DNA from: Hungatella sp.
GTDB taxonomy: Bacteria; Bacillota; Clostridia; Lachnospirales; Lachnospiraceae
DNA length: 45,522 bases
Assembly: GCA_022795805.1 (NCBI GenBank)
Contig: JAAWHK010000010.1
Location: 1 to 45,522 of the forward strand
Reading direction: 5' to 3'
Positions 427 to 13,436 of the stretch are shown here, one piece after another. Below the pieces are notes generated by a model that was not told the DNA's origin, ran no database searches, and saw only the letters and a list, made by a program, of their open reading frames with translations. Within the stretch, counting starts at the first letter, position 1. Each line of letters starts with the position of its first letter. The translations under genes were made by a program, and so were the position numbers.

Positions 427-3400
427 TTATCCAAAACTACTTCTGACCCTATCCTCAAAATAAGAAGGATATTCTTCTAAATAAACAAATATTTTATCTC
501 TAATATCCTTGTTTTTTTTAACTATGTTTTTAATCTCTTTTACATTCCCAGCTAGATACCGTTCCTGAATGATTGATGCAATCTCACCCGCTATTACACG
601 ATCATTAAATCCCATCTCATAAATTACAATACTACATAAATCAGTTAAACCATATCTCATCTGCTTTGATAAGGCTTTAAACTTATTTACTAAATCAACA
701 TCATCACATTTATAATCCACATTCTCAATTATTGCTGCCAAAATTAGCGTACAGTCATAACCAAAAAATCCATCACATAAATCTATTATCTGTTTTAAAG
801 ATATCCCTGTATATCTCCTTCTTTTTAGAATTCTAATATCTTTAGATATTGCTGTATGACAAATATCTATATACGACTCTCCATGTATCCATTTTATTCC
901 CAGTTCAATCAGCATATCCGGTTTATTGCAATTTTTTACTATTGTATTATTTGTTCGCAAAAGTATAGGAAAAATTGTTTTTAGCAATTCTTCCACTGTC
1001 CCGCAACCAATAATCTCCAGAATATGTTCATCAATCCATTGCTCTATTTCTATCTCCTTTCTTACCCCTAAAAGAGATTTGCTATATCGCTGCCTTTTAT
1101 CTGGCGAATCTATCGCTTTTACAATAAATTCTCCAATCAAATCTACAATATGCAGTAATCTCTTTCTTTCATTTTCATCAGCAAGATAAAAAGCTAATGT
1201 TCCCTCAATAATATTATGAATATTTTCTTTTGACTCTTCATACGTTTTCTCCATAAGATAAAATAACAGAAAACTTTCAATTGCCTCTATATTATAGTTC
1301 ATCCTATTAACGATTCTCTCAGCTTCTATATATGTTGTTTCTTGTTCCAATTTCAAACTTTCTAAAAACATTTGAATCTTTATAGGGAACTCTCCTGAAG
1401 GATAATATAGTTCAAATATCTCCATAATATTTTCCAAATAATTTTCCATTTCTTTATCAACACGCAACCAAGATAAAAGTTCACTTAAACAAGGTTCCGC
1501 CTGATTGCTACTCAATAGTTTTTTGTAATTTATCCACTTCCAATTTTTATATGGATCTCTTCTCACCCTATACACATTCGTTTCAGAAAGAATAATATTC
1601 CCTTCTGTATAAATACCAGCCCTTCCGGATCTTCCTATTAAATTCTGAAAGTCCCTCACTTTAATCTGTTCTTTTCCTTGATAGATTGTGGGGATAATCA
1701 AATACCTAATTGGCAGATTTACCCCCTGTGCAAGGGTTGATGTACATACCAGAAATACAATCAGCCTTTTTTGCATGGCATATTCCACAGCACACCTGAT
1801 TCCCATTGGTATTCCCCCATGGTGAACAAATGCACCTAATCCAGAAGCTAAATAATATTCATTATCCATTCCAAAATTTTTCTCAATAAGATTCCTGATT
1901 TTAGAGATTTCTTTTTTATCTGAATATTGGATTAAATTAGAAATATCATATCCTCTATTTTCTATATCCAAAATACGTTCTAAAACCTTATCCGCAGTAT
2001 CCTTTCTGCCGCAAAATATAACAGCACCACCATTTATGCAAAGATTGATTCCTAATGCTAAAGCCACATCATTCTTATGCTCATTTTTCCCATTATTAAT
2101 TTCTGGAAACAGTCTTTCTTTTCTCTCTTTTCCAAACTTCTTCAGCCCAGTCTGCGTAATAACTCTCGGTACAAAAAACTCTTCTTCCTCCATATTTTCA
2201 TAATTCAAAAAATATAAATATATGTATACTGCTTGATTATTCCTATTAAATTTGGTATCCGCAATACTTATAGCTTTATCAGAAGTTTGTATTGCATTAC
2301 CTGCAATAACCTCTCCACTCCCATCTGTGAGCCACTCATTAATCTCCCCAGCATTGGGAATTACAGCAGAAATCAATACTTTCTGTGTTTCATCTGTCAA
2401 ATAGTGTTTTATTGTTGAAATAAGCAGTTCATATGTAATACCACGATTAGGATCATCAAATAGATGCCCCTCATCAAATATCACCACCCCCACATTTAAC
2501 AAAAAATATATTCCCTGTCTAATGACATATAACAACTTTTCAGGGGTAACAATATACACTCTCTTTTCGTTTGAATTTCCTTGACTAAAAATATCTGCGA
2601 AATCCACTTGCAACACATCTGACAGTTCATTTATGTGGATACTTTCATCAAAAGAAAATACTTTTTCTAATTCCTCGGTTATTTCCCTGCATAACGAACG
2701 AAATGGGGCAACTACAATTGCAAAATTTGTCCTCTTGCTCAGAAAAGCTGATAAAATAATCAATGCAATTGATTTCGTTTTTCCTGAACTTGTTGGCATC
2801 TGTATTATAGCAGAATTTCCAGAATATACCCCCATCTCTCCCAGTTTTCTTTGACCCTGCCACAATTCTGTTATTAAAGTCCCTTTCCTTATAGCTTCTC
2901 TCCATAATTCAGGATCAATCTCTGTATAGTAAGGCATTAGCTCATAAGAAGAATGCTTTATCTTCAGATAAATCACTGCAATAAACGCATCCGCAAACAA
3001 CAGTTCCCTGTCACTTCCCTCTGCATATATCATTTTTCTAAAATCAACCAATTTATCAAACCTTTGAAATACCCCTGTCTTCGCAAAGCAATTATATTCT
3101 TCGCATATCTCTGATAATATTTTATAGTTTCCTAAATAATCTATATGACTACATCCCTTTAGGATTTGTGTCAGAACTGAATCTACTCCATTAATCCCTA
3201 AATCAATGTTATCCCCAACCTGCAAAGCTAACACTCTGGAACTCCCATTGCGGTCACACAGATAGTATACAATTGAACCCAACAAAACGTAGTAATCCTT
3301 ATCTCCTGAATATAATTGAGAATTTATAAATCCATCAAAAAACCTGGAAGCAAATTGTAAATTCTCCTGATAATTTGTGTGAGAAAAATCCACTCCTTTA

Positions 3401-3576
3401 AAGCTATCAATAATTCTATCCGAAAAATCTCCAATAATAGCAATCGCTGAAATAATCAATTGATTAACTTCTTTCTCTGTAGTTCCATGTAAACTTTCGG
3501 GAATATGATATTCATATAGCTTCGCTTTGGCGCGAACTTTTTTCAAATAGTACTTTGATGTATCCCCTATCAACAT
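427..3576 (-). CDS. hamB: SKI2-like superfamily 2 helicase, HamB of a Hachiman-like defence system
   Basis: A 1049-residue DExH helicase. Visible motifs are motif I PTSSGKT (about residues 261-267), motif II DEGH (368-371), motif III-like SAVIPN (403-408), motif V TSTLAQGVNLP (612-622) and motif VI LIGRSGRAG (646-654). These are typical of SKI2/Hel308/HamB-type helicases. Roughly 250 residues precede the helicase core and 390 follow it, as in large defence helicases. The gene overlaps the upstream nuclease gene by 7 bases, so the two are translationally coupled, and AGGAGAGCAGC precedes its ATG. In Hachiman the helicase senses DNA ends or single-stranded DNA and restrains the HamA nuclease until infection. 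That mechanism is family knowledge, applied here by inference. An AbpAB-type or other nuclease-helicase pair is the main alternative. Confidence 0.75.
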   Translation of the reverse strand: MLIGDTSKYYLKKVRAKAKLYEYHIPESLHGTTEKEVNQLIISAIAIIGDFSDRIIDSFKGVDFSHTNYQENLQFASRFFDGFINSQLYSGDKDYYVLLGSIVYYLCDRNGSSRVLALQVGDNIDLGINGVDSVLTQILKGCSHIDYLGNYKILSEICEEYNCFAKTGVFQRFDKLVDFRKMIYAEGSDRELLFADAFIAVIYLKIKHSSYELMPYYTEIDPELWREAIRKGTLITELWQGQRKLGEMGVYSGNSAIIQMPTSSGKTKSIALIILSAFLSKRTNFAIVVAPFRSLCREITEELEKVFSFDESIHINELSDVLQVDFADIFSQGNSNEKRVYIVTPEKLLYVIRQGIYFLLNVGVVIFDEGHLFDDPNRGITYELLISTIKHYLTDETQKVLISAVIPNAGEINEWLTDGSGEVIAGNAIQTSDKAISIADTKFNRNNQAVYIYLYFLNYENMEEEEFFVPRVITQTGLKKFGKERKERLFPEINNGKNEHKNDVALALGINLCINGGAVIFCGRKDTADKVLERILDIENRGYDISNLIQYSDKKEISKIRNLIEKNFGMDNEYYLASGLGAFVHHGGIPMGIRCAVEYAMQKRLIVFLVCTSTLAQGVNLPIRYLIIPTIYQGKEQIKVRDFQNLIGRSGRAGIYTEGNIILSETNVYRVRRDPYKNWKWINYKKLLSSNQAEPCLSELLSWLRVDKEMENYLENIMEIFELYYPSGEFPIKIQMFLESLKLEQETTYIEAERIVNRMNYNIEAIESFLLFYLMEKTYEESKENIHNIIEGTLAFYLADENERKRLLHIVDLIGEFIVKAIDSPDKRQRYSKSLLGVRKEIEIEQWIDEHILEIIGCGTVEELLKTIFPILLRTNNTIVKNCNKPDMLIELGIKWIHGESYIDICHTAISKDIRILKRRRYTGISLKQIIDLCDGFFGYDCTLILAAIIENVDYKCDDVDLVNKFKALSKQMRYGLTDLCSIVIYEMGFNDRVIAGEIASIIQERYLAGNVKEIKNIVKKNKDIRDKIFVYLEEYPSYFEDRVRSSFG

Positions 3577-4370
3577 TTTGCTGCTCTCCTATATAACTCA
3601 TCTATTAGTTTTTTCAGGTCTTGATTATGAATTACTATTAATTCAAGAGGCTTCTCTTTATGTTGTTCCGTTTTTGTATAAATCATTTCTTCGGCTATAA
3701 ATTTACTGTTTGTCAATACGGCAGAGGCGCCATATTTAACTACATATGGCCTATCAGCATAATTTTGAAATCGTTCAATCAAAGATATCTTATCCTTTTC
3801 TCCCGCATCCTTAAGCCTCCGTTTAATTGCATTTAAAGACTCTGAATATCTGGTTATATCCTTGTTTGAATCATCAATGGCTTTTTGTAGTCTCTCATAT
3901 CCTTTAATACGGCTTTTAGAATTTGCCAGCCCTTTAACTTCAATTACAAAGACTTCATCTTTTGGCGAAATATCCGGACCTGATTTAAACCCTATTACAT
4001 CGCTTCCAGGTGAAGACATGTTCCGGTTTATTTTCCTGCAATATCTTGTTCTTGGCACATAATAATCACATATAAATTCAATATAATCTGCAAGCAGAAG
4101 CTCACAAAAATCCCCAACTCTGGTGGATGGTCCTGGCTTTATTTTTTTGTCAGGAAATACATCATTTTCTAGAAATTCTTCCCTTGTCTTTCCTGTACCA
4201 TACCTGTCAAAATCTAAATCATCCATTGAACGGTAATTCTCCCTGAAATGCATCGCCCATTCATCCAGAATTTCGTCATTATCCTGTGAATCCAAACATA
4301 GAACTTTTATCTTATTTCCATCATTTGTATATAAATTCTCTTCTGTTTTATACCAATCCATATATTTCAT
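3570..4370 (-). CDS. hamA: HamA-like effector nuclease (DUF1837 / PD-(D/E)XK type)
   Basis: A 266-residue protein whose centre reads as a PD-(D/E)XK nuclease core: E90 in the helix GDFCELLLADYIE, D124 in GSDVIGF, and E144-V-K146 in FVIEVKG. HamA proteins (DUF1837) have the same order: a G-[DE]-x-x-E helix, a G-x-D-x-[IV] strand, then E-x-K. No other domain is apparent. An AAGGAAAT ribosome binding site lies about 8 bases before the ATG. It is the first gene of the operon, and the next gene's ATG lies inside its last codons. Assignment to HamA rests on these residues plus the helicase partner; similarity is by eye. A degradative effector triggered by the helicase is inferred. Confidence 0.68.
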   Translation of the reverse strand: MKYMDWYKTEENLYTNDGNKIKVLCLDSQDNDEILDEWAMHFRENYRSMDDLDFDRYGTGKTREEFLENDVFPDKKIKPGPSTRVGDFCELLLADYIEFICDYYVPRTRYCRKINRNMSSPGSDVIGFKSGPDISPKDEVFVIEVKGLANSKSRIKGYERLQKAIDDSNKDITRYSESLNAIKRRLKDAGEKDKISLIERFQNYADRPYVVKYGASAVLTNSKFIAEEMIYTKTEQHKEKPLELIVIHNQDLKKLIDELYRRAAKC

Positions 4371-4571: not shown

Positions 4572-4613
4572 AAAAAAACAGGTTAACGAACTATCATAAT
4601 CCGTTAGCCTGCT
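4572..4613 (-). terminator. Rho-independent terminator behind the displaced spoVAC end
   Basis: On the minus strand CAGGCTAACG (4602-4611) pairs with CGTTAACCTG (4579-4588) across a 13-base loop, with one non-Watson-Crick position. Seven T residues follow (4572-4578). It aligns with the terminator of the intact spoVAC at 11471-11511, so the displaced segment includes this terminator as well as the gene end. Confidence 0.8.
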
Positions 4614-4661
4614 TTCTAAGCCTAAATCTTATATTTATGATACTATTTTTATGTGTGATTT

Positions 4662-4792
4662 TTAAATAACCCCCATCACTCCTCCAATCCAATAAATCAC
4701 TCCCAACACCCAGCTGCTCAAAATCCCATAAAGTATCACCGGCCCCGCAATTGTGAATATTTTGCACCCAATTCCAAACACCTGTCCCTCCG
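4662..4792 (-). pseudogene. Displaced 3' end of spoVAC (left copy of direct repeat)
   Basis: Read on the minus strand in the SpoVAC frame, this segment encodes the last 42 residues (EGQVFGIG to GGVMGVI) and the stop of SpoVAC. It is identical in protein to the intact gene at 11550. The DNA differs from 11550-11680 at nine positions, all silent. Similarity stops abruptly at 4792; beyond it the sequence is unrelated AT-rich DNA. There is no start codon or ribosome binding site, so it is a gene fragment. The open 79-codon frame over this stretch is a different reading frame and is not a gene. Confidence 0.92.
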
Positions 4793-4970
4793 AGTGTGTC
4801 AATATAGGGCAAAAAAATTTGTCTAAAACTCAAGAATTATGCATTTTCTTCTGATTTCAAATCTATTTTTGCAGAATTTTGTCTTATATTTTAGTTGATT
4901 CATATATTTATTCACGTTTATTAAATCAATTTAAATAATTTTATGAATTTATAGTATATCAACACCCCCA
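4793..4970. other. Gene-free AT-rich left end of the inserted element
   Basis: 178 bases between the truncated spoVAC copy and the stop codon of the AlbA_2 gene. No coding frame is credible. It contains GTCTAAAAC at 4821-4829, the same nine bases that occur at 11383-11391 near the other end of the element in the same orientation. No terminator is evident for the AlbA_2 gene. Confidence 0.5.
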
Positions 4971-6455
4971 TTACATTTTTAACCGATATGTTCTATTTCT
5001 GTTGGTTCCAAGCGCTTCAACATCATCCATCTCAGAAAGTATAACTCTGGTTCTCGCTACACTCAAACCAAGCAATTCGGCAATATCTCTCGTTTTTGCC
5101 GCCTCTTGCTCGTGCAGATACCACCTGATTCTTTCCATATTTTTGTCTGTTTTATTCGCTTGCCTTTTATCGCTTGTTTTTATCGCTTGTTTTTTATCGC
5201 TTGTTTTTATCGCTTGTTTTTTAACAAATCTTAATATCAATGATGTTCTGTCTGGATCAAAGCGCTCCTCTATCACAGGTTCTACCCATCCCTCATCCTC
5301 CCATACATTAAAAATATTAGGCACTCCGCTTCCAGCATGTTCACCAATGTCTATCAAATTAAACATTTTCATCAGGCTTTTATTTCTCGGATCGGATTTT
5401 CCGCCTTTACGCATTTGTTCCTTTCCCAGCCTGATATATCCAGGATTTTCCAATGTAAGCTTATCGTCCTCTTTGACGATAGTAACACCAAATTTTCCGT
5501 AAAAGTCTGTATTGATAATACAATTTGCCAATGCTTCCCTCAATGCTCGATGAACTGGTGTATCATCAACCCGAAAACCACCTTCCATTTTAAATGGTAC
5601 CTTAATATCCTTAATGATTTTATTGTATACACGAAAATAAAACTCAAATAAATTCCCAGGCCATTCACCTGAGGAAGATTGGAGCCTGTCTGTCCATCTG
5701 ATAACCGTATCTGGATTTTCTCTGTAATCCAAAAAATATTCTGGGAAATATCTTACAATATCATACTCATTTCCAAACATAAGCATTCCAGCGGCAGTTG
5801 GATGAAGTCTTTTATCCTCTTTAGAAATGCCTGCTGCTCCGATTACTCTCAGATATTCATTGTCATCCAATCTTTCAAATGGATGTCCCGGCTTAAAAGA
5901 TTTGTGACTATTACGATAGCCACGGATAGAGTCTTTATTCAAATCTTCTATCTCAGCTTCATCCAGCACTTCCATATCCATGGTTTCCTCTGCCTGGTCT
6001 CTTAGCATTGTCTTAACCTGCAGTCTGGTACAGTGATAATCTCCTTCCCAATTTCTGCGAAAAGTTCCTCCGAATAAGTCATTATTAATATATACCGGCT
6101 TTTGCTCCCTCCTTGCGCTGGGCACCCAGATTACCATGATCACATCATCTGTGCCATCCATCGAATAAGTTTCAACATCATCATCTCTCAAAATATTTAT
6201 ACTTACCTTTTTACGATTATTAAGTGTATCCCAAAAGGTCTTTTTCAATTTGGAGGCATTTTTTAATCCGGTTGTATGCCAATTACCATCTTTGTCTTCT
6301 TTTACACCAAGAATAATAACTCCGCCATAACAGTTAGCAAAAGCCGAGTAAGTATCCCATAAACTATTAGGCAGTCCCCCTTCTGCTTTCTTTACTTCCC
6401 TACGGTTATCTTCCTTATAAGAATCAAATTTTGTTAAATCAAATAATTCTTCCAT
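4971..6455 (-). CDS. AlbA_2/AAA_4 family ATP-binding protein with C-terminal winged helix
   Basis: A 494-residue protein. An N-terminal AlbA_2 domain (about residues 8-130) contains the E-x-K-type stretch EVKKAEGG, the N-C-Y turn SAFANCYGG and the strand VIILGVKED. The central and C-terminal part (about 290-400) resembles HATPase_c_4, with HRALREALANCI and the glycine-rich IGEHAGSGVPNIF. A 9-residue tandem repeat (KQAIKTSDK twice, then a degenerate copy) follows at about 412-436. It leads into a winged-helix-like end (RDIAELLGLSVARTRVIL). AAGGAG lies 6 bases before the ATG. It is the last gene after the Gabija-like pair. Such proteins are usually labelled putative transcriptional regulators or helicase-related; a part in defence is suggested only by position. 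Confidence 0.82.
   Translation of the reverse strand: MEELFDLTKFDSYKEDNRREVKKAEGGLPNSLWDTYSAFANCYGGVIILGVKEDKDGNWHTTGLKNASKLKKTFWDTLNNRKKVSINILRDDDVETYSMDGTDDVIMVIWVPSARREQKPVYINNDLFGGTFRRNWEGDYHCTRLQVKTMLRDQAEETMDMEVLDEAEIEDLNKDSIRGYRNSHKSFKPGHPFERLDDNEYLRVIGAAGISKEDKRLHPTAAGMLMFGNEYDIVRYFPEYFLDYRENPDTVIRWTDRLQSSSGEWPGNLFEFYFRVYNKIIKDIKVPFKMEGGFRVDDTPVHRALREALANCIINTDFYGKFGVTIVKEDDKLTLENPGYIRLGKEQMRKGGKSDPRNKSLMKMFNLIDIGEHAGSGVPNIFNVWEDEGWVEPVIEERFDPDRTSLILRFVKKQAIKTSDKKQAIKTSDKRQANKTDKNMERIRWYLHEQEAAKTRDIAELLGLSVARTRVILSEMDDVEALGTNRNRTYRLKM
5165..5222 (-). repeat. Tandem 13/14-base repeat inside the AlbA_2 gene
   Basis: The octamer ATCGCTTG (plus strand) starts at 5169, 5182, 5196 and 5209, at spacings 13, 14 and 13, separated by T runs. 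Two units make 27 bases, or nine codons. The same DNA word is therefore read alternately as QAIK and TSDK. Gain or loss of one 27-base pair keeps the frame; loss of one 13- or 14-base unit would not. Confidence 0.9.
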
Positions 6456-6607
6456 GTTTACTCCTTGCTTTAATATTCGCTTATATCCAATAAAATCAAC
6501 TCATCCAAAGATATCTATTCACTCCAATACTTGTTAAGGCAATAGCACCGTTTTAGTGATATTTGATTTTTTTACTAATACAATTTATATTTCTTGTCCT
6601 TTCCCCT

Positions 6608-8515
6608 TTAGACATAACATATTTGGAGTTTCCCAGACCGTTCCAATTCCATTAATCCTTCCTCAAACATTTTAAATGTATCATTACTTATAGCAGTACA
6701 AAGCAAGTCCGTTGCGCGGCTCATACCAACATACCCTACTTTTAATGCTTTTTTCTCATCTGCTCCCAATTTCTTAATATTGCCGCCAAGCATAAACTTC
6801 AAAATCCTTTGCATATCAGTTTTTTTATTAAAATATGTTTCCACATATAGAGTTCCTGTGTGTGTCTCCCCCTTTACTCCGTGAACTGTATCAAATAGTA
6901 ACGATACACCATCCCTTGTATAACAATTATACAAAACATTCTTTTTAGAATTAGCCTGTTTTTCAAACAGTTTCAAAAACTTTTTTTCATTGCAATCCTC
7001 AAAAAAAGTCAATACTATATGTAAGGCTTCTGTTCCAATTAGCTTAAATGCTGTCTCATCGTAGTTCTTAATATTTATTGCCTCTCTTACAATAAGACTT
7101 CGTAAATTTTTCCATTCTATTGTCATATTGTTCTTTATATACTTTTCTAATAGAAAGTACGTAATTCGCTTTTCTTCAAACATAATATCATTCATATTCA
7201 AATATCGTACAATACACTCTATTACAGATTTATAAATCAATCCTACTGTTACATTGTGCTTTGCATTTTCTTCCAAGATAGATTGAAAACTGAGCCCTAC
7301 CTGTTTAATAGTAACATCCTTATTAGATATATACGCAGGATAATAACTTTTAATTGATAGCTGCTCATCTTTTTCCTTATAGCCAACCCATCCACAACAC
7401 TTAAATACTGATTTTCCCTTCTTAAGATTATGCTTCAGGATCAGATCTATAAATTTATCTTTTACATTATAGATTTTGTCATAATCGAAAACTAATATAT
7501 AAATGAATGCGTCTTCACTTCCATTTCCTTTTAAAGCTTTTTTATGTGGTTCAACCCGTAATTTTTCAATAATATCCGCAATATTTTGTGGAAATCTCAT
7601 ACTTTTTGAGATTTCATACCTAACCTCAAAAGCACTACTCTCCGTCCCCTCTTTTTCATCATAAATAGCCTGATCCATATCTCCAAATTTTTGAATAACC
7701 ATTCGCTCTGGCAAAAAAATTTTATCTAATATCTCATTCTGTACTGCCCTATTGTCTTGTACCTCATCCATAAAAACATATTGAAATCTAGAGCAAAAAT
7801 AGTTTGTCAATTCTGGATGTTCTTCTAGATACATCTGTGCTAATAAGTATGTATCATCATATCGTAATATCCCCTGACTAAATAAATTATCTACCAATAA
7901 AGAGTATAATGCCTTGTATGTTTCTGATGACTTATTTTTTAAATTTAAAGATTTGTTTCCTATACAGAAATCAAATTCTCCATCTTTTCTCCGCAATACA
8001 ATACTTTTTATATAGTTATCTGTTTTCGAGTAGTCTCCACCACATTTGCCATACGCATACTTTTTTAAAATAGTAATCTCTTTCTTTCTCTGAAACATTT
8101 TTTGGTAATAATACTCATCATTTATTGCGGTAATTCCCTTCCTATATGTCTGTTTCAAAAAAGGAATCGACAAAAATTTATCTGTAAATGCCTGTATTGT
8201 CCCTATAAAATTAGGATATTGAAATAGTATGTCTCCCTTACTTCCCAGCCTATTTTTAATTTCATTAATTGCTACATTTGTATGTGTAATAATACAAATC
8301 CCCTTTCCATCATAAAGCGGCAAATGATTGACAAGTGCTATAATCTTTCCCATAAGAGCAGTCGTCTTTCCACTTCCTGGACAAGCCATAACTGACGTAG
8401 ACGTATCCATTCTTTTGATAATAGGAAGTTTTTCATTTATATCAAAAGTTTTGCTTCCCAACAATATCTTTTCTGCGTAATGGACATCTTCATCTGTAAA
8501 TTTCACAATACTCAT
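6608..8515 (-). CDS. gajB: UvrD/Rep-type superfamily 1 helicase (GajB-like)
   Basis: A 635-residue protein from the ATG at 8515, chosen because GGAAAGGAG lies 10 bases upstream and the preceding gene ends only 4 bases earlier. An in-frame ATG at 8542 inside that gene lacks such a site. Motifs are Walker A ACPGSGKTT (about 44-52), motif Ia-like IITHTNVAINEI, DEVQD (250-254), motif V VHGVKGETH and motif VI YVGMSRATDLL. These are the marks of UvrD-like helicases. In Gabija, GajB is the helicase partner of the OLD-family nuclease GajA and relieves or senses nucleotide-dependent inhibition. The pairing with an OLD gene immediately upstream supports this. At 635 residues it is longer than the founding GajB, so a Gabija relative is also possible. 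Confidence 0.78.
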   Translation of the reverse strand: MSIVKFTDEDVHYAEKILLGSKTFDINEKLPIIKRMDTSTSVMACPGSGKTTALMGKIIALVNHLPLYDGKGICIITHTNVAINEIKNRLGSKGDILFQYPNFIGTIQAFTDKFLSIPFLKQTYRKGITAINDEYYYQKMFQRKKEITILKKYAYGKCGGDYSKTDNYIKSIVLRRKDGEFDFCIGNKSLNLKNKSSETYKALYSLLVDNLFSQGILRYDDTYLLAQMYLEEHPELTNYFCSRFQYVFMDEVQDNRAVQNEILDKIFLPERMVIQKFGDMDQAIYDEKEGTESSAFEVRYEISKSMRFPQNIADIIEKLRVEPHKKALKGNGSEDAFIYILVFDYDKIYNVKDKFIDLILKHNLKKGKSVFKCCGWVGYKEKDEQLSIKSYYPAYISNKDVTIKQVGLSFQSILEENAKHNVTVGLIYKSVIECIVRYLNMNDIMFEEKRITYFLLEKYIKNNMTIEWKNLRSLIVREAINIKNYDETAFKLIGTEALHIVLTFFEDCNEKKFLKLFEKQANSKKNVLYNCYTRDGVSLLFDTVHGVKGETHTGTLYVETYFNKKTDMQRILKFMLGGNIKKLGADEKKALKVGYVGMSRATDLLCTAISNDTFKMFEEGLMELERSGKLQICYV

Positions 8516-8519
8516 GTAA

Positions 8520-10577
8520 TTAATACTCCTTTCCACAAGCATACATAATAGCGTGTTTTAAATAAGAAAGACTTTCATCCTTTGCTAATATAGCATTAAC
8601 AGATATGGCATTCTGCTCAAGTATCTCTGAAAAATATTGGGCAGTCACTGCCTTTGATGCATTTTTTAACAGCAAATCTTCATAAATCTTATATGCTATT
8701 ATATCCTGAGTATCTCCTTCAGAGGACCATTCATCTATTATCCTTTTAGCTTCTAAAAGTTCTTCTGATAAATTAATTTCTATGGAATCTTCCTTTTTTA
8801 CTTTCTTTGCAACAATCACAGATGCATATAAATAATCTCGTAAGACACTAAGTGCAATATCATATTCTAATGTCCAATTATTGGTAAATAACCTCGCTTT
8901 ATCCGTACAATATTTTTCTATTTTTCTTTTTAGAACAAAATTTCTATACTGTTCTGTACTTACTTCTTCCTTAATACAACTTTCAATACTTTCCGTTACC
9001 TTTTTGCTTAGTTTTTTCAGTTTATTTTGCTCTTTTATTTTTTCATAAATGTCTTCTTTCTTAATAAAAATCTTTCCTTCAATATCTGAACATTTTAACT
9101 CACATAGCTTCTCTACTTCCTTTGAATCTTTAATATAGTAGACAATATTTTTATTCTTCTCTTTTTTTATTTCGTAATAATAATCCGGTCGAACATCCAA
9201 ATCTGTAACTATTGCTAATGGTATATCTATACAGTCACCGCTTTTTCTTCTAAATATATTTGCATATCTAAGAAAAGCTAAACTTCCAACATTAACAATT
9301 GAAACTCCATACTTTTCCAAAGGCATACCAATTATATTTGCAATAACTGGTATTAGAATATTTTCTGCATCACCTTCAACAAAAATGATGCCCTTAGCAA
9401 AAAATAAGTTAGCCTTTGTCGAATCTAAAAATCTTTCTAAATATTTATAATCTCCTCTATCTAAAGCAGTATGGGCAGAATCTAACAAATAAGCTTTATT
9501 ATTTTTACAATATATCAGATTAGACAATTTTATTTTCGATGCTAATGTAATACTATGCGTCGTAATAATACACTGTAACTTTTTGTTACTATTTTCATTA
9601 TCATTCTTATTTTGTAAATAAGCAATTAGTCTTAACTGAGCTTGAGGATGTAAATGAGCTTCTATTTCCTCGATCAAAGCAATATTAAAGCGATTTTCTA
9701 TGTCAAACAATAATAATTCTAATGCTATAAATAATTGATTTAAAGAGCCTAATCCAACTTGATTTTGAGCAATAATTAGGCTTAGCCTGCGCAAAATACT
9801 GGTCAATTCATTTCTGCTTGCAGAAATTATCGGCTCATAACCATGCAAATCATAATTATTACCCATAAATTCCCGCAAAGTTGTTTCTAATTTCTCTGTT
9901 ATTTCTTTAGCGCCTTTTTCTCCATCTTTAATCCCAAAAATTTCATCTTTCTCAAGCATATCCTTTTTAAAATATTCCTCAATTTTTTGATTGGCTACAC
10001 CAAAATATCTTTCTAAAACATGAAGATCTTTTTCTTTAACAAAAAGTGGATGATTTAGTAATACTTGTGCCAACCTCGAATGGTAACCATGTTTCAATTC
10101 ATTTTCTGCATCTCTTAGTGGCTTAAGATAAGTCACTCTCAATAATTCTATTGCATCGAATCGGGTATCTAATTCTGACATACCAGCAGTAACCGAATGT
10201 ATAATTCTGTTATCTCTATGCCTGGCTATCATCCGAACACAAAGTTCTGCCTTATCCCCATCAAATGTAAGCCATTCCAGAAAACTTCCTGCTTCATCAT
10301 CACTTAATTCTTGAAAAACACATTCTATTTTTAATAATTCACTTCGTATTCCTTTAAAATTTTCATAAAAATCAGATTCTTTTAATTGTAAAGTATCATG
10401 ACTTCTAGTCCCAAGAACAAATTTAATTGCATCAATAATTGCTGTCTTTCCTGTATCATTTTCTCCAATAAGAATATTTAATCCTTCTTTTAAAGAGACC
10501 TCTAAGGCCGGAGTCCCGTCTAAATCTGCATAACCATATTTTCTAAAATTCCAAATTTTCACACAAGATAAATACAT
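8520..10577 (-). CDS. gajA: OLD-family ATPase/TOPRIM endonuclease (GajA-like)
   Basis: A 685-residue protein from the ATG at 10577 (AAAGGAG 6 bases upstream); an upstream ATG at 10619 has no such site. The ABC-type ATPase part shows Walker A GENDTGKT (38-45), a degenerate signature around GLGSLNQLF, Walker B IALIEEIEAHLHP (298-310) and the H-loop ITTHS (337-341). The TOPRIM part shows E400 in IIFVEGDAEN and D458-x-D460 in IVTDLDVRPD. This is the class 2 OLD architecture (OLD next to UvrD). GajA is a DNA nicking endonuclease kept inactive by nucleotides until phage infection lowers their level; this is family knowledge. The C-terminal 220 residues are lysine- and glutamate-rich with no recognised domain. 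Confidence 0.8.
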   Translation of the reverse strand: MYLSCVKIWNFRKYGYADLDGTPALEVSLKEGLNILIGENDTGKTAIIDAIKFVLGTRSHDTLQLKESDFYENFKGIRSELLKIECVFQELSDDEAGSFLEWLTFDGDKAELCVRMIARHRDNRIIHSVTAGMSELDTRFDAIELLRVTYLKPLRDAENELKHGYHSRLAQVLLNHPLFVKEKDLHVLERYFGVANQKIEEYFKKDMLEKDEIFGIKDGEKGAKEITEKLETTLREFMGNNYDLHGYEPIISASRNELTSILRRLSLIIAQNQVGLGSLNQLFIALELLLFDIENRFNIALIEEIEAHLHPQAQLRLIAYLQNKNDNENSNKKLQCIITTHSITLASKIKLSNLIYCKNNKAYLLDSAHTALDRGDYKYLERFLDSTKANLFFAKGIIFVEGDAENILIPVIANIIGMPLEKYGVSIVNVGSLAFLRYANIFRRKSGDCIDIPLAIVTDLDVRPDYYYEIKKEKNKNIVYYIKDSKEVEKLCELKCSDIEGKIFIKKEDIYEKIKEQNKLKKLSKKVTESIESCIKEEVSTEQYRNFVLKRKIEKYCTDKARLFTNNWTLEYDIALSVLRDYLYASVIVAKKVKKEDSIEINLSEELLEAKRIIDEWSSEGDTQDIIAYKIYEDLLLKNASKAVTAQYFSEILEQNAISVNAILAKDESLSYLKHAIMYACGKEY

Positions 10578-10618
10578 TTTTTTCTCCTTTAAAACATATA
10601 TTGATGTCATCATCCACA

Positions 10619-10627
10619 ATTATATCA
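10619..10627 (-). promoter_or_regulatory. Extended -10 promoter candidate of the Gabija-like operon
   Basis: On the minus strand the sequence is TGATATAAT, a perfect TGnTATAAT extended -10 element, 41 bases before the chosen gajA start. No good -35 hexamer is visible, which extended -10 promoters tolerate. It lies in the 97-base gap between the recombinase stop and gajA. Confidence 0.5.
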
Positions 10628-10674
10628 AATATATGGTAAATTTCCTATAATTTTCTATATATCACTATGTACGA

Positions 10675-11334
10675 CTATATATTTAATATTACCTCTATAT
10701 TCCCCAAGCAATCCACTCTTACATACTTCAGGCGTCTTATAGCAATCTCCCTTGTTAGGCTCTTGCAGCACAAAATCTCTCTATCTCCAATCTCTTTCCT
10801 CATTTCCTCCAAAACTTTCTTGTTTAACTCTTCAACCGCTATTTTATGCGCCGAACATCCCTTTCCCTTTTTATTCTTCCCACACACATAATATAGATAT
10901 GTCCGTCCTCTAGTTGATACCGATTTCTCCACCAAAAAACTGCCACACTCCTTACATACTGCAATTCCAACCAAAGCACTTATTTCCATACGTTTTCCAA
11001 CTACTCTTGTATTTAGCGTCAACATTCTTCTTGCTATTTCTAATTCTTCCTTAGCTATAGCACTGTACCTTTCATTTCCATAAACTGGATCAGACAATAT
11101 CTTTCTTATTTCTGCCAAAGACCACCCTACAATCTTATCTTTCTTATATTTCGCTGGATATTCAATCCCTTGAGATTCTATAACATTCTTGATCTGTCCC
11201 AGACTCATTCCATCAATGCATAAGCTGAACATCAATTTCACTGATTCCATCTTTTCACTATCCATTACTACTACATCATATTTTTCATGTCTCATAAATC
11301 CATATGGGATTTTTTCTGTAAGTTTTCCACTCAT
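10675..11334 (-). CDS. Truncated large serine recombinase (recombinase domain plus zinc ribbon only)
   Basis: A 219-residue protein from the ATG at 11334 (GGAGAAAG about 7 bases upstream; the ATG at 11364 has no site). It begins directly in the Recombinase domain of large serine recombinases (KIPYGFMRHEKYDVVVMD, then a helical stretch and WSLAEIRKILSDPVYGNERY). A zinc ribbon follows (VCKECGSFL and YYVCGKNKKGKGC). The N-terminal resolvase domain with the catalytic serine, normally about 150 residues, is absent. The 215 bases upstream hold no coding remnant of it. It probably lost its 5' half when the right junction formed and cannot catalyse strand exchange alone. A residual role as a DNA-binding accessory factor is possible. 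Confidence 0.8.
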   Translation of the reverse strand: MSGKLTEKIPYGFMRHEKYDVVVMDSEKMESVKLMFSLCIDGMSLGQIKNVIESQGIEYPAKYKKDKIVGWSLAEIRKILSDPVYGNERYSAIAKEELEIARRMLTLNTRVVGKRMEISALVGIAVCKECGSFLVEKSVSTRGRTYLYYVCGKNKKGKGCSAHKIAVEELNKKVLEEMRKEIGDREILCCKSLTREIAIRRLKYVRVDCLGNIEVILNI

Positions 11335-11381
11335 ATAAACTTTCTCCATTCGTAAAATATTCATACTGGCAGTTTAAACAT

Positions 11382-11418
11382 CGTCTAAAACCGTCTAAAT
11401 TCATCTATCTATTAGACG
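11382..11418. repeat. Three CGTCTAA words in the recombinase leader
   Basis: CGTCTAA occurs at 11382-11388 and 11392-11398 as direct copies, and TTAGACG at 11412-11418 as the inverted copy, all within 37 bases upstream of the recombinase gene. The arrangement resembles a protein binding site: an operator, or a recombinase arm site near the element end. A related GTCTAAAAC lies at 4821-4829. No function is established. Confidence 0.45.
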
Positions 11419-11470
11419 AAATACAAAGCAAACGCTACATCAGCAATCCTTCTGTATCCTATAAAGCATC

Positions 11471-11511
11471 AAAAAAGCAGGCTAATGAATTATTCTATCC
11501 ATCATCCTGCT
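11471..11511 (-). terminator. Terminator of spoVAC
   Basis: Minus-strand stem AGCAGGATGATG (11500-11511) against CATTAGCCTGCT (11476-11487), 10 of 12 positions paired, followed by a run of six T (11471-11476). It lies about 40 bases after the spoVAC stop codon. It is homologous to the terminator at 4572-4613. Confidence 0.72.
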
Positions 11512-11549
11512 CATAAAGCTAACTATCAAATTACTTTTTATCTACCTCA

Positions 11550-11680
11550 TTAAATAACCCCCATCACTCCTCCAATCCAATAAATCACACCAAGCACCCA
11601 ACTGCTCAAAATCCCATACAAAATCACCGGCCCGGCAATTGTGAATATTTTGCACCCAATTCCAAACACCTGGCCCTCCG
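11550..11680 (-). repeat. Right copy of the 131-bp spoVAC direct repeat
   Basis: Matches 4662-4792 at 122 of 131 positions by direct comparison. It forms the functional 3' end of spoVAC. The homologous downstream terminators extend the similarity, with more divergence, beyond the stop codon. Confidence 0.9.
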
Positions 11681-12002
11681 CCCGATACTCAATCGCCGGC
11701 GAAACCACCGAATTAGCAAACCCGGTAATAGGCACCAGCGCCCCGGCGCCGCCCCATTTCACGATCTTCGGATAAAGATTAAATCCTGTCAGCACGATGC
11801 TCCCCAGAATCAGCACCAGAAGGTTCCAGGCTGCCGCTGTCTTCTCGTCCATCCCGTAAGACATCAGCCAGTTAAGCACCGCCTGCCCGATGGTGCAGAT
11901 AATTCCTCCGGTGACAAAAGCCCGGACAATATTCTTCCACACAGGGTTAACGGGAGTCACTTCCTTCACATAGGCGTTGTACGCGTCCTTATTAATCTCC
12001 AT
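11550..12002 (-). CDS. spoVAC: Stage V sporulation protein AC
   Basis: A 150-residue integral membrane protein, the same length as Bacillus subtilis SpoVAC. It has matching landmarks: an N-terminal NAYVKEVTPVNP segment, the first membrane span with GGIICTIGQ, then GAGALVPITGFANSVVSPAIEY and EGQVFGIG. SpoVAC forms a mechanosensitive channel in the forespore inner membrane and acts in uptake and release of calcium dipicolinate. AGGAGG sits 6 bases before the ATG. The last 43 codons, including the stop, are duplicated at 4662-4790, and the inserted defence element starts behind the gene. The usual downstream partners spoVAD and spoVAE are missing here and should lie beyond the insertion. Confidence 0.93.
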   Translation of the reverse strand: MEINKDAYNAYVKEVTPVNPVWKNIVRAFVTGGIICTIGQAVLNWLMSYGMDEKTAAAWNLLVLILGSIVLTGFNLYPKIVKWGGAGALVPITGFANSVVSPAIEYRAEGQVFGIGCKIFTIAGPVILYGILSSWVLGVIYWIGGVMGVI

Positions 12003-12113: not shown

Positions 12114-13436
12114 CTAAAACACCACCTGATAAATATTGTAAAACCCGGTCAGCGTCACGATCCCCACCAGAACCGGCGTCAGATACCGGATGCACATCAC
12201 CCACATTCTCTTCACCTTAAAGGGAATCCCATCCCTCTCAATCTCATCCACCAGGTACTCAGGGTGCCATTTCCATCCCACATAGTAACACATGGTGAGG
12301 CCGCCCAATGGCAGAAGAATATTATCCGTGATCATTCCCACAAAATCAAACACGCTGTAGTTGAGAATCTGCACCTGGCCCAAAGTCCCGAAGGACAGAG
12401 CGCTTGGAATACCCAAAAGGAAAATAGCCGTACCGATCACAAGGGTTGCCTTTTTACGCTCCCACCTCAGAGTGTCTATGGCAAATGACACCGACACCTC
12501 CAAAAGGGCGATGGCACTGGTGACAGCCGCAAAAAACACAAGCGCAAAAAACACAAGCGCAAAAATCCCGCCGCCGGCAATGGCGGCAAACACCTTCGGC
12601 AGCGTCCCGAAGATAAGCCCCGGACCCTGTCCCGGCTCCAGGCCAAAAGCAAACACAGCCGGGAAAATGGCGATTCCGGCCAGAATCGCAATCAGCGTGT
12701 CCAGGCCTGCCACGGATATGCAGCTTCTGGGAATATTCTCCTTCTCGCTGAGATAACTTCCGTAAGTAATGGTGATCCCCATGCACAGGCTGAGAGAATA
12801 AAACACCTGCCCCAGAGCTCCGCTTACGGAACTAAGGCTGAACGCAGAAAAATTCGGAGCAAACATAAACTTGAATCCTTCACCCGCCCCAGGAAGCGTC
12901 ACGCTGCGGCCGATAATCACCAAAAGCAGTACAAACAGAAGGGGCATCATTACCTTACTGGCCTTCTCGATTCCGCTGACCCCAAAATAGCACACCCCGG
13001 TGGTAATTGCCATAAACAGGAAGTGCCAAAACACCGGCTCACGGCTGCCGATAAATCCGTCGAAATCTGCCACCGCCTCCATAGTGGTCCCATAGCTGAA
13101 AATATATTTCATAATCCATCCGCCGATTACACTGTAATAAGACAAAATAATAAACGCCGCCAGAACCCCGAAGATACCCACAATCCCCGCATGAGGGTCA
13201 ATATCTCTGTAGGCCTGCACCGGATCATGGCGCGTCTTCCGCCCCAGGGACATCTCCGTAATCATCACCGGAAGTCCCAGAATCACAATAAAAAACAGGT
13301 ACGCTACCAAAAACGGAAATCCGCCGTTTCTCCCCATAAGATAGGGAAATTTCCACAGGTTTCCGAGACCGATAGCCGCCCCTGCCGTTGCCATGATAAA
13401 TCCCAGTTTGCTTGCCCACTGCACATTCGTTTTCAT
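12114..13436 (-). CDS. Sodium-dependent transporter, neurotransmitter:sodium symporter (SNF) family
   Basis: A 440-residue polytopic membrane protein. The N-terminus reads WASKLGFIMATAGAAIGLGN followed by LWKFPYLMGRNGGFPFLVAY, the diagnostic first helix and loop of LeuT-fold NSS transporters. About 11-12 hydrophobic segments follow. Bacterial members carry amino acids or related compounds with sodium; the substrate cannot be read here. The gene lies between spoVAB and spoVAC, an unexpected guest in a spoVA cluster. It has its own vegetative-type promoter and an inverted repeat in its leader, so it is probably not expressed only in the forespore. Confidence 0.88.
   Translation of the reverse strand: MKTNVQWASKLGFIMATAGAAIGLGNLWKFPYLMGRNGGFPFLVAYLFFIVILGLPVMITEMSLGRKTRHDPVQAYRDIDPHAGIVGIFGVLAAFIILSYYSVIGGWIMKYIFSYGTTMEAVADFDGFIGSREPVFWHFLFMAITTGVCYFGVSGIEKASKVMMPLLFVLLLVIIGRSVTLPGAGEGFKFMFAPNFSAFSLSSVSGALGQVFYSLSLCMGITITYGSYLSEKENIPRSCISVAGLDTLIAILAGIAIFPAVFAFGLEPGQGPGLIFGTLPKVFAAIAGGGIFALVFFALVFFAAVTSAIALLEVSVSFAIDTLRWERKKATLVIGTAIFLLGIPSALSFGTLGQVQILNYSVFDFVGMITDNILLPLGGLTMCYYVGWKWHPEYLVDEIERDGIPFKVKRMWVMCIRYLTPVLVGIVTLTGFYNIYQVVF

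Follow-up and report, generated by a model that had tools for sequence, protein, structure and literature searches.

SCC and SCCmec elements lie at the 3' end of a conserved gene, rlmH, use large serine recombinases of the Ccr type and form composite arrays. They are cited in the description of the Dehalococcoides ssrA islands (PMC3146451), which are arranged in tandem at the 3' end of a conserved gene, with displaced 3' repeats each carrying a conserved motif just upstream and a CcrB-like serine recombinase; 15 of these islands have no integration module and were suggested by the authors as possibly cis-mobilizable. According to a review (PMC5704250), cis-mobilizable elements carry no integration or transfer genes but retain att sites, and are able to travel along with an adjacent ICE. 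spoVA genes have been placed on predicted islands of gut Firmicutes (PMC6907783), and no description of spoVAC as an attachment site was found in the open-access literature, judged by titles, abstract starts or passages, with subscription papers outside this scope.

The spoVAC locus analyzed here resembles the Dehalococcoides islands in its tandem islands, displaced 3' ends, upstream motif and serine recombinase. It differs from them in that the target is a protein gene and not a tmRNA gene, the repeat is 131 bp and not 20 bp, the cargo consists of defence genes, a full recombinase element interrupts the gene, and a recombinase gene without catalytic domain lies beside the intact end. The layout is that of SCC, with an insertion in the 3' part of a conserved gene that is kept intact and the gene end repeated at the far boundary; in contrast to SCC/SCCmec, the spoVAC units have no ccr gene (the analyzed unit encodes a catalytic-domain-less protein only), carry a much longer gene end and occupy a sporulation gene. 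As in cis-mobilizable elements, the unit has no integrase or transfer genes by domain content and att-type sites at both ends by sequence, and an element in genome G016, with the same P arm as the units, is a candidate helper; compared with the elements described in PMC5704250, a serine recombinase would be involved here and the junction lies inside the coding region, leaving a mosaic protein gene. The Gabija and Hachiman systems themselves are GajA+GajB and HamA+HamB pairs by PADLOC, and their location alone stands out.

Organization of the spoVAC locus

The analyzed window comprises the entire contig G000:C29 (45,522 bp) of a metagenome-assembled genome that is 78% complete in 131 contigs. 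Its nearest named relatives are for the most part gut MAGs that bear the label Hungatella sp. or Clostridiaceae. On the minus strand, an intact spoVAC gene (11550-12002, 150 aa, PF03862, 2.8e-44) is followed in order by a recombinase-like gene of 229 aa (10675-11364), gajA (8520-10619, PADLOC 8.1e-214, start uncertain, the match beginning at residue 15), gajB (6608-8542, 3.3e-201), an AlbA_2/HATPase_c_4 gene (4971-6455) identified by domain and homology searches, a conserved arm (4793-4820), a displaced copy of the spoVAC 3' end (4662-4792), hamA (3570-4370, 9.9e-99), hamB (427-3576, PADLOC HamB, E 0, 1197.7 bits), and, running off the end of the contig, the first part of another AlbA_2 gene (3-395; 131 residues, 100% identical to the G016 copy). 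GC content was 0.31-0.36 across most of the cargo vs. 0.54 right of spoVAC. The gene at 12114-13436, which from reading the sequence we take to be sodium-symporter-like, directly precedes spoVAC in the close group, and clustered with no gene of the sister-group loci.

The end of the intact gene (B', 11550-11680, with the core CGGA at 11677-11680) and the displaced copy (core at 4789-4792) form a direct repeat of 131 nt with 93% identity, a spacing of 6888 and nine differences. All nine are silent: the same residues are translated from both copies from codon 111 onward, and the single difference before it, GGC/GGA at codon 110, is likewise silent. With a silent share of 0.235 (our own figure from site counts), such an outcome has a probability of about 2e-6. 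The duplicated gene end and its exclusively silent divergence had been described in an earlier note on this DNA, as had the Gabija-like pair and the AlbA_2 gene between the copies, all of which were recovered here. The homologous terminators that it placed behind both copies are supported only in part: stem-loop-like sequences are present at 11474-11493 and 4596-4615 (I2 arms), but the repeat itself stops at the stop codon.

A GajA ATPase-TOPRIM protein adjoining a GajB UvrD-like helicase constitutes a Gabija system inside the unit, and a HamA (DUF1837) protein adjoining a HamB helicase constitutes a Hachiman system just outside the repeat-bounded unit. Since this second pair (427-4370) lies left of the displaced copy, the island extends past the element outlined in the earlier note (4662-11680) to the end of the contig. 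The repeat-bounded unit has no full integrase and is a single member of an array of defence islands, which is located at a recombination site in spoVAC, at codons 108-109.

Displaced gene ends and a conserved arm

At least six displaced spoVAC 3' ends were present among the matches listed, in 5/26 genomes of the genus (G000, G003, G010 twice, G016 and G023). With a C-terminal query, five of the six started at codon 108, the one on G010:C61 being truncated. A conserved arm (CCTATATTGACWCACTCGGA), which we infer to be an attP half-site (P), directly precedes the displaced ends, and upstream of five of them it reads TTTTTTG..CCTATATTGACWCACTC, followed by CGGA (CAAA in G010). The pattern CCTATATTGACWCACTC, with up to 2 mismatches, occurred at 22 places in 15/26 genomes of the genus; five of these precede a spoVAC end, including all four perfect matches, while the other 17 look like chance, a backward control having given 14. 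A longer arm pattern with up to 3 mismatches was found at five places in 4/397 genomes of the family, two of them (G000 and G044) at spoVAC. Among 84 spoVAC loci (80 from the genome collection and four others), the arm with two mismatches followed spoVAC in L113 (the G010 contig), L128 and L061 (G044). G044 belongs to another genus, so that the arm recurs beyond the genus; L128 is strain 1XD21-29, for which no genus is given and which, with a SpoVAC 71% identical, probably represents another genus as well. By eye, an arm that is related to this one but distinct from it precedes a shortened spoVAC end in L170 and L151. One exact match of the arm in IMG/VR, within a phage-like ORF, was taken as chance.

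Two contigs, G004:C61 and G026:C98, end within spoVAC near codons 110 and 115, respectively, as if the assembly broke at the repeated gene end. Complete or partial copies of a PDDEXK_2-like gene recur near P-B' sites or in the insert (L056:12023-12991, L131:11144-12124, G023:C93 and G010:C83).

Cargo sharing and the 229-aa recombinase-like gene

Between G000 and L128, the later part of spoVAC, the 229-aa gene, gajA and gajB fall in a single 5.3-kb alignment with 87.9% identity, vs. 68.7% upstream of spoVAC, and dS values were 0.40, 0.42 and 0.54 for the 229-aa gene, gajA and gajB, respectively, vs. 0.84 for spoVAC. The Hachiman block is 99.5% identical between G000 and G016 over 4.8 kb, from the P arm to the end of the window, and that alignment has no further match beyond the arm on its other side. 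Judged from these alignments, cargo has recently been shared between lineages. The Gabija genes have no match in G003 and L126 beyond the 229-aa gene, and thus the ends are constant while the cargo varies. AlbA_2 homologues were present in 9/26 genomes of the genus, several of them away from spoVAC; the gene was rejected as a marker of the site, as the homologues inspected there had no adjoining spoVAC end.

The gene described in the earlier note as a recombinase remnant indeed encodes Recombinase and zinc-ribbon domains and no catalytic domain, in the window as well as in G003, but it is conserved rather than a mere remnant. Full-length copies, 83-89% identical, lie directly after spoVAC in G003 (also L115), L128 and L150, and broken or partial copies were found in L126, L146 and L129. 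For the four intact genes, each of the six pairwise comparisons gave a dN/dS of 0.13-0.20 (0.12-0.13 for gajA and gajB), and the 229-aa gene therefore looks like a working gene under purifying selection. The protein was detected in 2/395 relatives, in both adjoining spoVAC, and the remaining copies come from loci fetched by spoVAC, a set biased to that place. Its NCBIfam matches to XisF and CcrA were far below cut-off, an AlphaFold model reached a mean pLDDT of 39 (four sequences), and a PDB profile search gave no match.

A candidate recombinase element in G016

On contig C26 of G016, the spoVAC match ends within codon 109, and after GGGCGGA the gene runs into CGAATGAGTTATAATAGGGACAAG. This post-break sequence (in full, CGGACGAATGAGTTATAATAGGGACAAG) is present in 1/26 genomes of the genus, being the sole case of the arm here termed P', which had no match in IMG/VR. 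On contig C8, three large serine recombinases (Resolvase and Recombinase domains) are followed by a PDDEXK_2-like gene (match below the Pfam cut-off), the P arm, the remainder of spoVAC and the Hachiman genes. C26 also encodes ParA-like, TraG-like and SLT/C39 proteins, and C8 encodes PcfJ-like and RecD2-like proteins. The core CGGA is common to the junctions of the arms and spoVAC, and is mutated in G010. Dyad-related arms are expected of two halves of one attP, and P and P' showed such a relation at 16/26 positions (shuffle p 0.004 ungapped and 0.02 gapped, for one element only). We regard G016 as carrying a putative conjugative element that interrupts spoVAC, unlike the defence units, which leave the gene intact; as the assembly keeps C26 and C8 apart, a single element between the two junctions is presumed.

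Apart from G016, none of the 84 spoVAC loci and 13 contig stretches, with flanks mostly up to 10 kb, had full recombinases like those of G016 (E <= 1e-8). Similar recombinases are common in the family (168/397 genomes, E <= 1e-60; relatives in phage records below 60% identity), and hence their presence alone is uninformative on spoVAC. In NCBIfam they resemble XisF and CcrB, below cut-off.

Mosaic spoVAC genes

Phylogenetic conflict within spoVAC was evaluated in eight intact genes, five from the genus and three (L126, L128 and L150) from outside the close group. The trees from codons 1-109 and codons 111-150 reject each other (p-AU 2e-38 for the 5' data on the 3' tree; 0.0016, and 0.0007 in a rerun, for the 3' data on the 5' tree), and thus some of the intact genes are mosaics. 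This supports an exchange of spoVAC 3' ends between lineages, claimed for these eight genes only, and is in line with the proposal of the earlier note that the element brought its own spoVAC 3' end. When the 3' end of G003 was replaced by its own displaced fragment, delta logL fell from 31.9 to 13.8 and p-AU rose from 0.0007 to 0.018, as expected if the displaced fragment is the native end. The conflict was eased for G003 only: with the fragment of G010 added delta logL stood at 20.6, with that of G000 added it rose to 30.3, and the L128 swap alone gave 26.6.

At the level of pairs, G003 and G007 differ at 6/40 codons before and 21/40 after the codon 110/111 boundary (Fisher 0.0008, the best of four pairs, uncorrected), and the three other pairs at that junction gave p values of 0.07-0.17. 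The 5' and 3' dS intervals did not overlap in only 4/28 pairs: the 3' part was closer in G007-L128, G017-L128 and L128-L126, and farther in G003-G007. In G017-L128, for example, dS was 1.07 (0.68-2.35) in the 5' part vs. 0.20 (0.05-0.44) in the 3' part, while in other pairs, such as G000-L150, both parts were alike. The displaced copy of the window is itself a mosaic within B', as compared by eye: its first ~25 bp are like the intact copy (one base apart), and from ~50 bp onward it is like the G016 copy, which implies that homologous recombination or gene conversion has also acted on these repeats.

A family-wide exchange of 3' ends was suggested by raw 5'/3' nucleotide identity, and this difference between inserted and empty sites was removed by a same-codon comparison. 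Restricted to codons for the same amino acid, there was no excess 3' similarity in inserted sites (Mann-Whitney p 0.71; 34 inserted and 20 empty rows, one genome being entered twice among the 54, as L068 and L154), and for this reason exchange is claimed for the eight genes of the tree test only. The GC3 difference (3' part minus 5' part) averaged -0.020 in inserted sites (34), +0.039 in empty sites (20, p 0.018) and +0.101 in the sister group (14, p 0.0003 against inserted sites), a shift that is supportive of imported 3' ends, with phylogeny uncontrolled.

spoVAC as a wider site for defence genes

Among 80 spoVAC loci, spoVAD lay within 200 bp in 19, the empty sites that the earlier note had proposed to look for, and 2.6-8.0 kb downstream in six. 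In 31 others there was no spoVAD in at least 9 kb, in 19 the contig was too short, and in five spoVAD was elsewhere; no empty site was seen in the closest group. In the sister group of the genus, sites were separated with flanking genes common to its members, and in L158 a cation ATPase follows spoVAC. That spoVAC serves as an insertion site for defence cargo, as the earlier note had it, is borne out in many, not all, of the separated loci. Out of ten single proteins hand-chosen from ten such loci, six matched PADLOC at 1e-25, namely Cas3 (L129, L147), Wadjet JetC (L130, L154), Lamassu LmuB (L179) and NsnA (L148), and those of L126, L135, L164 and L178 had no match at that threshold. In addition, a second Gabija type follows spoVAC in G010, and Wadjet II follows it in L185 and is also present on the G003, G010 and G017 contigs.

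In a group test (PADLOC, 1e-30), 88 ORFs from separated sites matched 121 models, and 52 ORFs downstream of spoVAE in empty sites matched four. All 52 control candidates and 88/139 insert candidates were used, leaving out six sister-group loci, L144, L153, L157, L172, L186 and L187, two 229-aa genes, one AlbA_2 gene and twelve further ORFs, several of them on the minus strand; since the ORFs were not selected blindly and PADLOC contains redundant models, the test gives a direction and not an enrichment factor. A type III restriction-modification pair lies directly upstream of spoVAD in G000 (contig C71; L004:2010-6722), so that the island may span from spoVAC to spoVAD, the gap between them not being assembled.

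Several runs of genes were noted in individual loci. G017 has a Cas3 gene ~7.4 kb after spoVAC (L038:8747-11191) and Wadjet II ~39-47 kb after it. In G007, a five-gene run after spoVAC (L035:2975-11445) is a candidate unknown system: its first gene weakly matches SspF, PADLOC has nothing for the three genes that follow, and neither Pfam nor NCBIfam matches the two large ones. A three-gene run after spoVAC in L126 (11498-17026) is another candidate, with no Pfam match for the first and third genes and no PADLOC or NCBIfam match for the second.

Discussion

We consider it probable that the array was built by site-specific recombination in spoVAC, at the core CGGA, with cargo hitchhiking in cis with a serine-recombinase element, in parallel to what was proposed for the Dehalococcoides ssrA islands (PMC3146451). 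A conjugative element with large serine recombinases, such as that of G016, would integrate its attP (P, P') into the spoVAC site B-B', giving B-P'[element]P-B'. Cargo located between this P-B' and a farther P-B' could then be co-excised and transferred together with the element, and after integration into spoVAC of a new host the element alone would excise through the nearer P-B'. The product, B-B' (the cargo's own 3' end)-cargo-P-B' (the host's displaced 3' end), would have the order found in the window, and G016, with recombinases just before P-B'-Hachiman, looks like a middle step. This scheme is the simplest that gives the window order under ordinary serine-integrase rules. The P arm at the displaced copies, the break in G016 at the same codon on two contigs, the mosaic spoVAC genes and the recent sharing of cargo are observations; the acting recombinase, the excision, the transfer in cis and the order of events are those that the sequence comparisons would suggest. 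Against the scheme stand the distribution of the G016 element over two contigs, its P' arm being the sole case in 26 genomes, and the mosaic within B' of the window's displaced copy, which recombination at the core alone does not give. The negative same-codon comparison over 54 rows, the small number of pairs with separate 5' and 3' dS intervals, the three non-significant junction tests, the fragment swaps that helped for G003 only and the lack of an observed empty site in the closest group also weigh against it.

That same switch between two relatives inside B' is what would be expected from homologous recombination (Campbell-type or by gene conversion) between the host gene end and cargo that brings along a spoVAC 3' end plus a terminator region, the P arm being a relic of an old insertion. 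The stretch of gene end common to the copies, 129-131 bp and up to ~225 bp with flanking DNA in some pairs, and the lack of a full integrase in the units also fit such a process, but four P arms are perfect over 17 bp exactly at the junction, the G016 gene breaks at the same codon, and the 99.5% identical G000/G016 block starts at the arm with unrelated DNA before it, so that we regard this explanation as unlikely. We find it decidedly unlikely that the units are SCC-like elements with their own attP (P-B'), self-moving in the past, whose integrase has shrunk to the 229-aa gene: such a history would account for a recombinase-like gene at the spoVAC end of the unit in G000, G003, L128 and L150, yet four lineages share one shortened version of that gene, whose dN/dS of 0.13-0.20 shows that it is not simply decaying, and the Gabija unit of G010 does not have it. 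Least of all do we expect a local duplication of the spoVAC end with unrelated genes inserted later, which the earlier note had already doubted; the copies are indeed 93% identical and in direct orientation, but the silent nature of all their differences, the conserved arm before them and the same layout in other lineages make it highly improbable.

Within the preferred scheme of site-specific recombination with cargo moving in cis, the 229-aa protein might be the DNA-binding half of a recombinase, kept by selection next to the intact end of the gene, which would bind the spoVAC att site and either block further integration or steer excision of the helper element. We propose this role of attachment-site guard tentatively, and with more doubt than conviction. 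If the guard blocks integration, both sporulation and the resident defence unit would be protected, and cargo would control its own neighbourhood; we know of no cargo-encoded control of this kind in other islands.

Mobile DNA has turned this conserved sporulation gene into a mosaic, so a tree of spoVAC from these bacteria can combine two different histories. An imported 3' end would keep the gene working despite the insertion. Strain 1XD21-29 carries a close relative of the Gabija unit of the window, and spoVAC emerges as a chromosomal address where commensal Lachnospiraceae appear to trade phage defences, with a putative att site and a candidate helper element.
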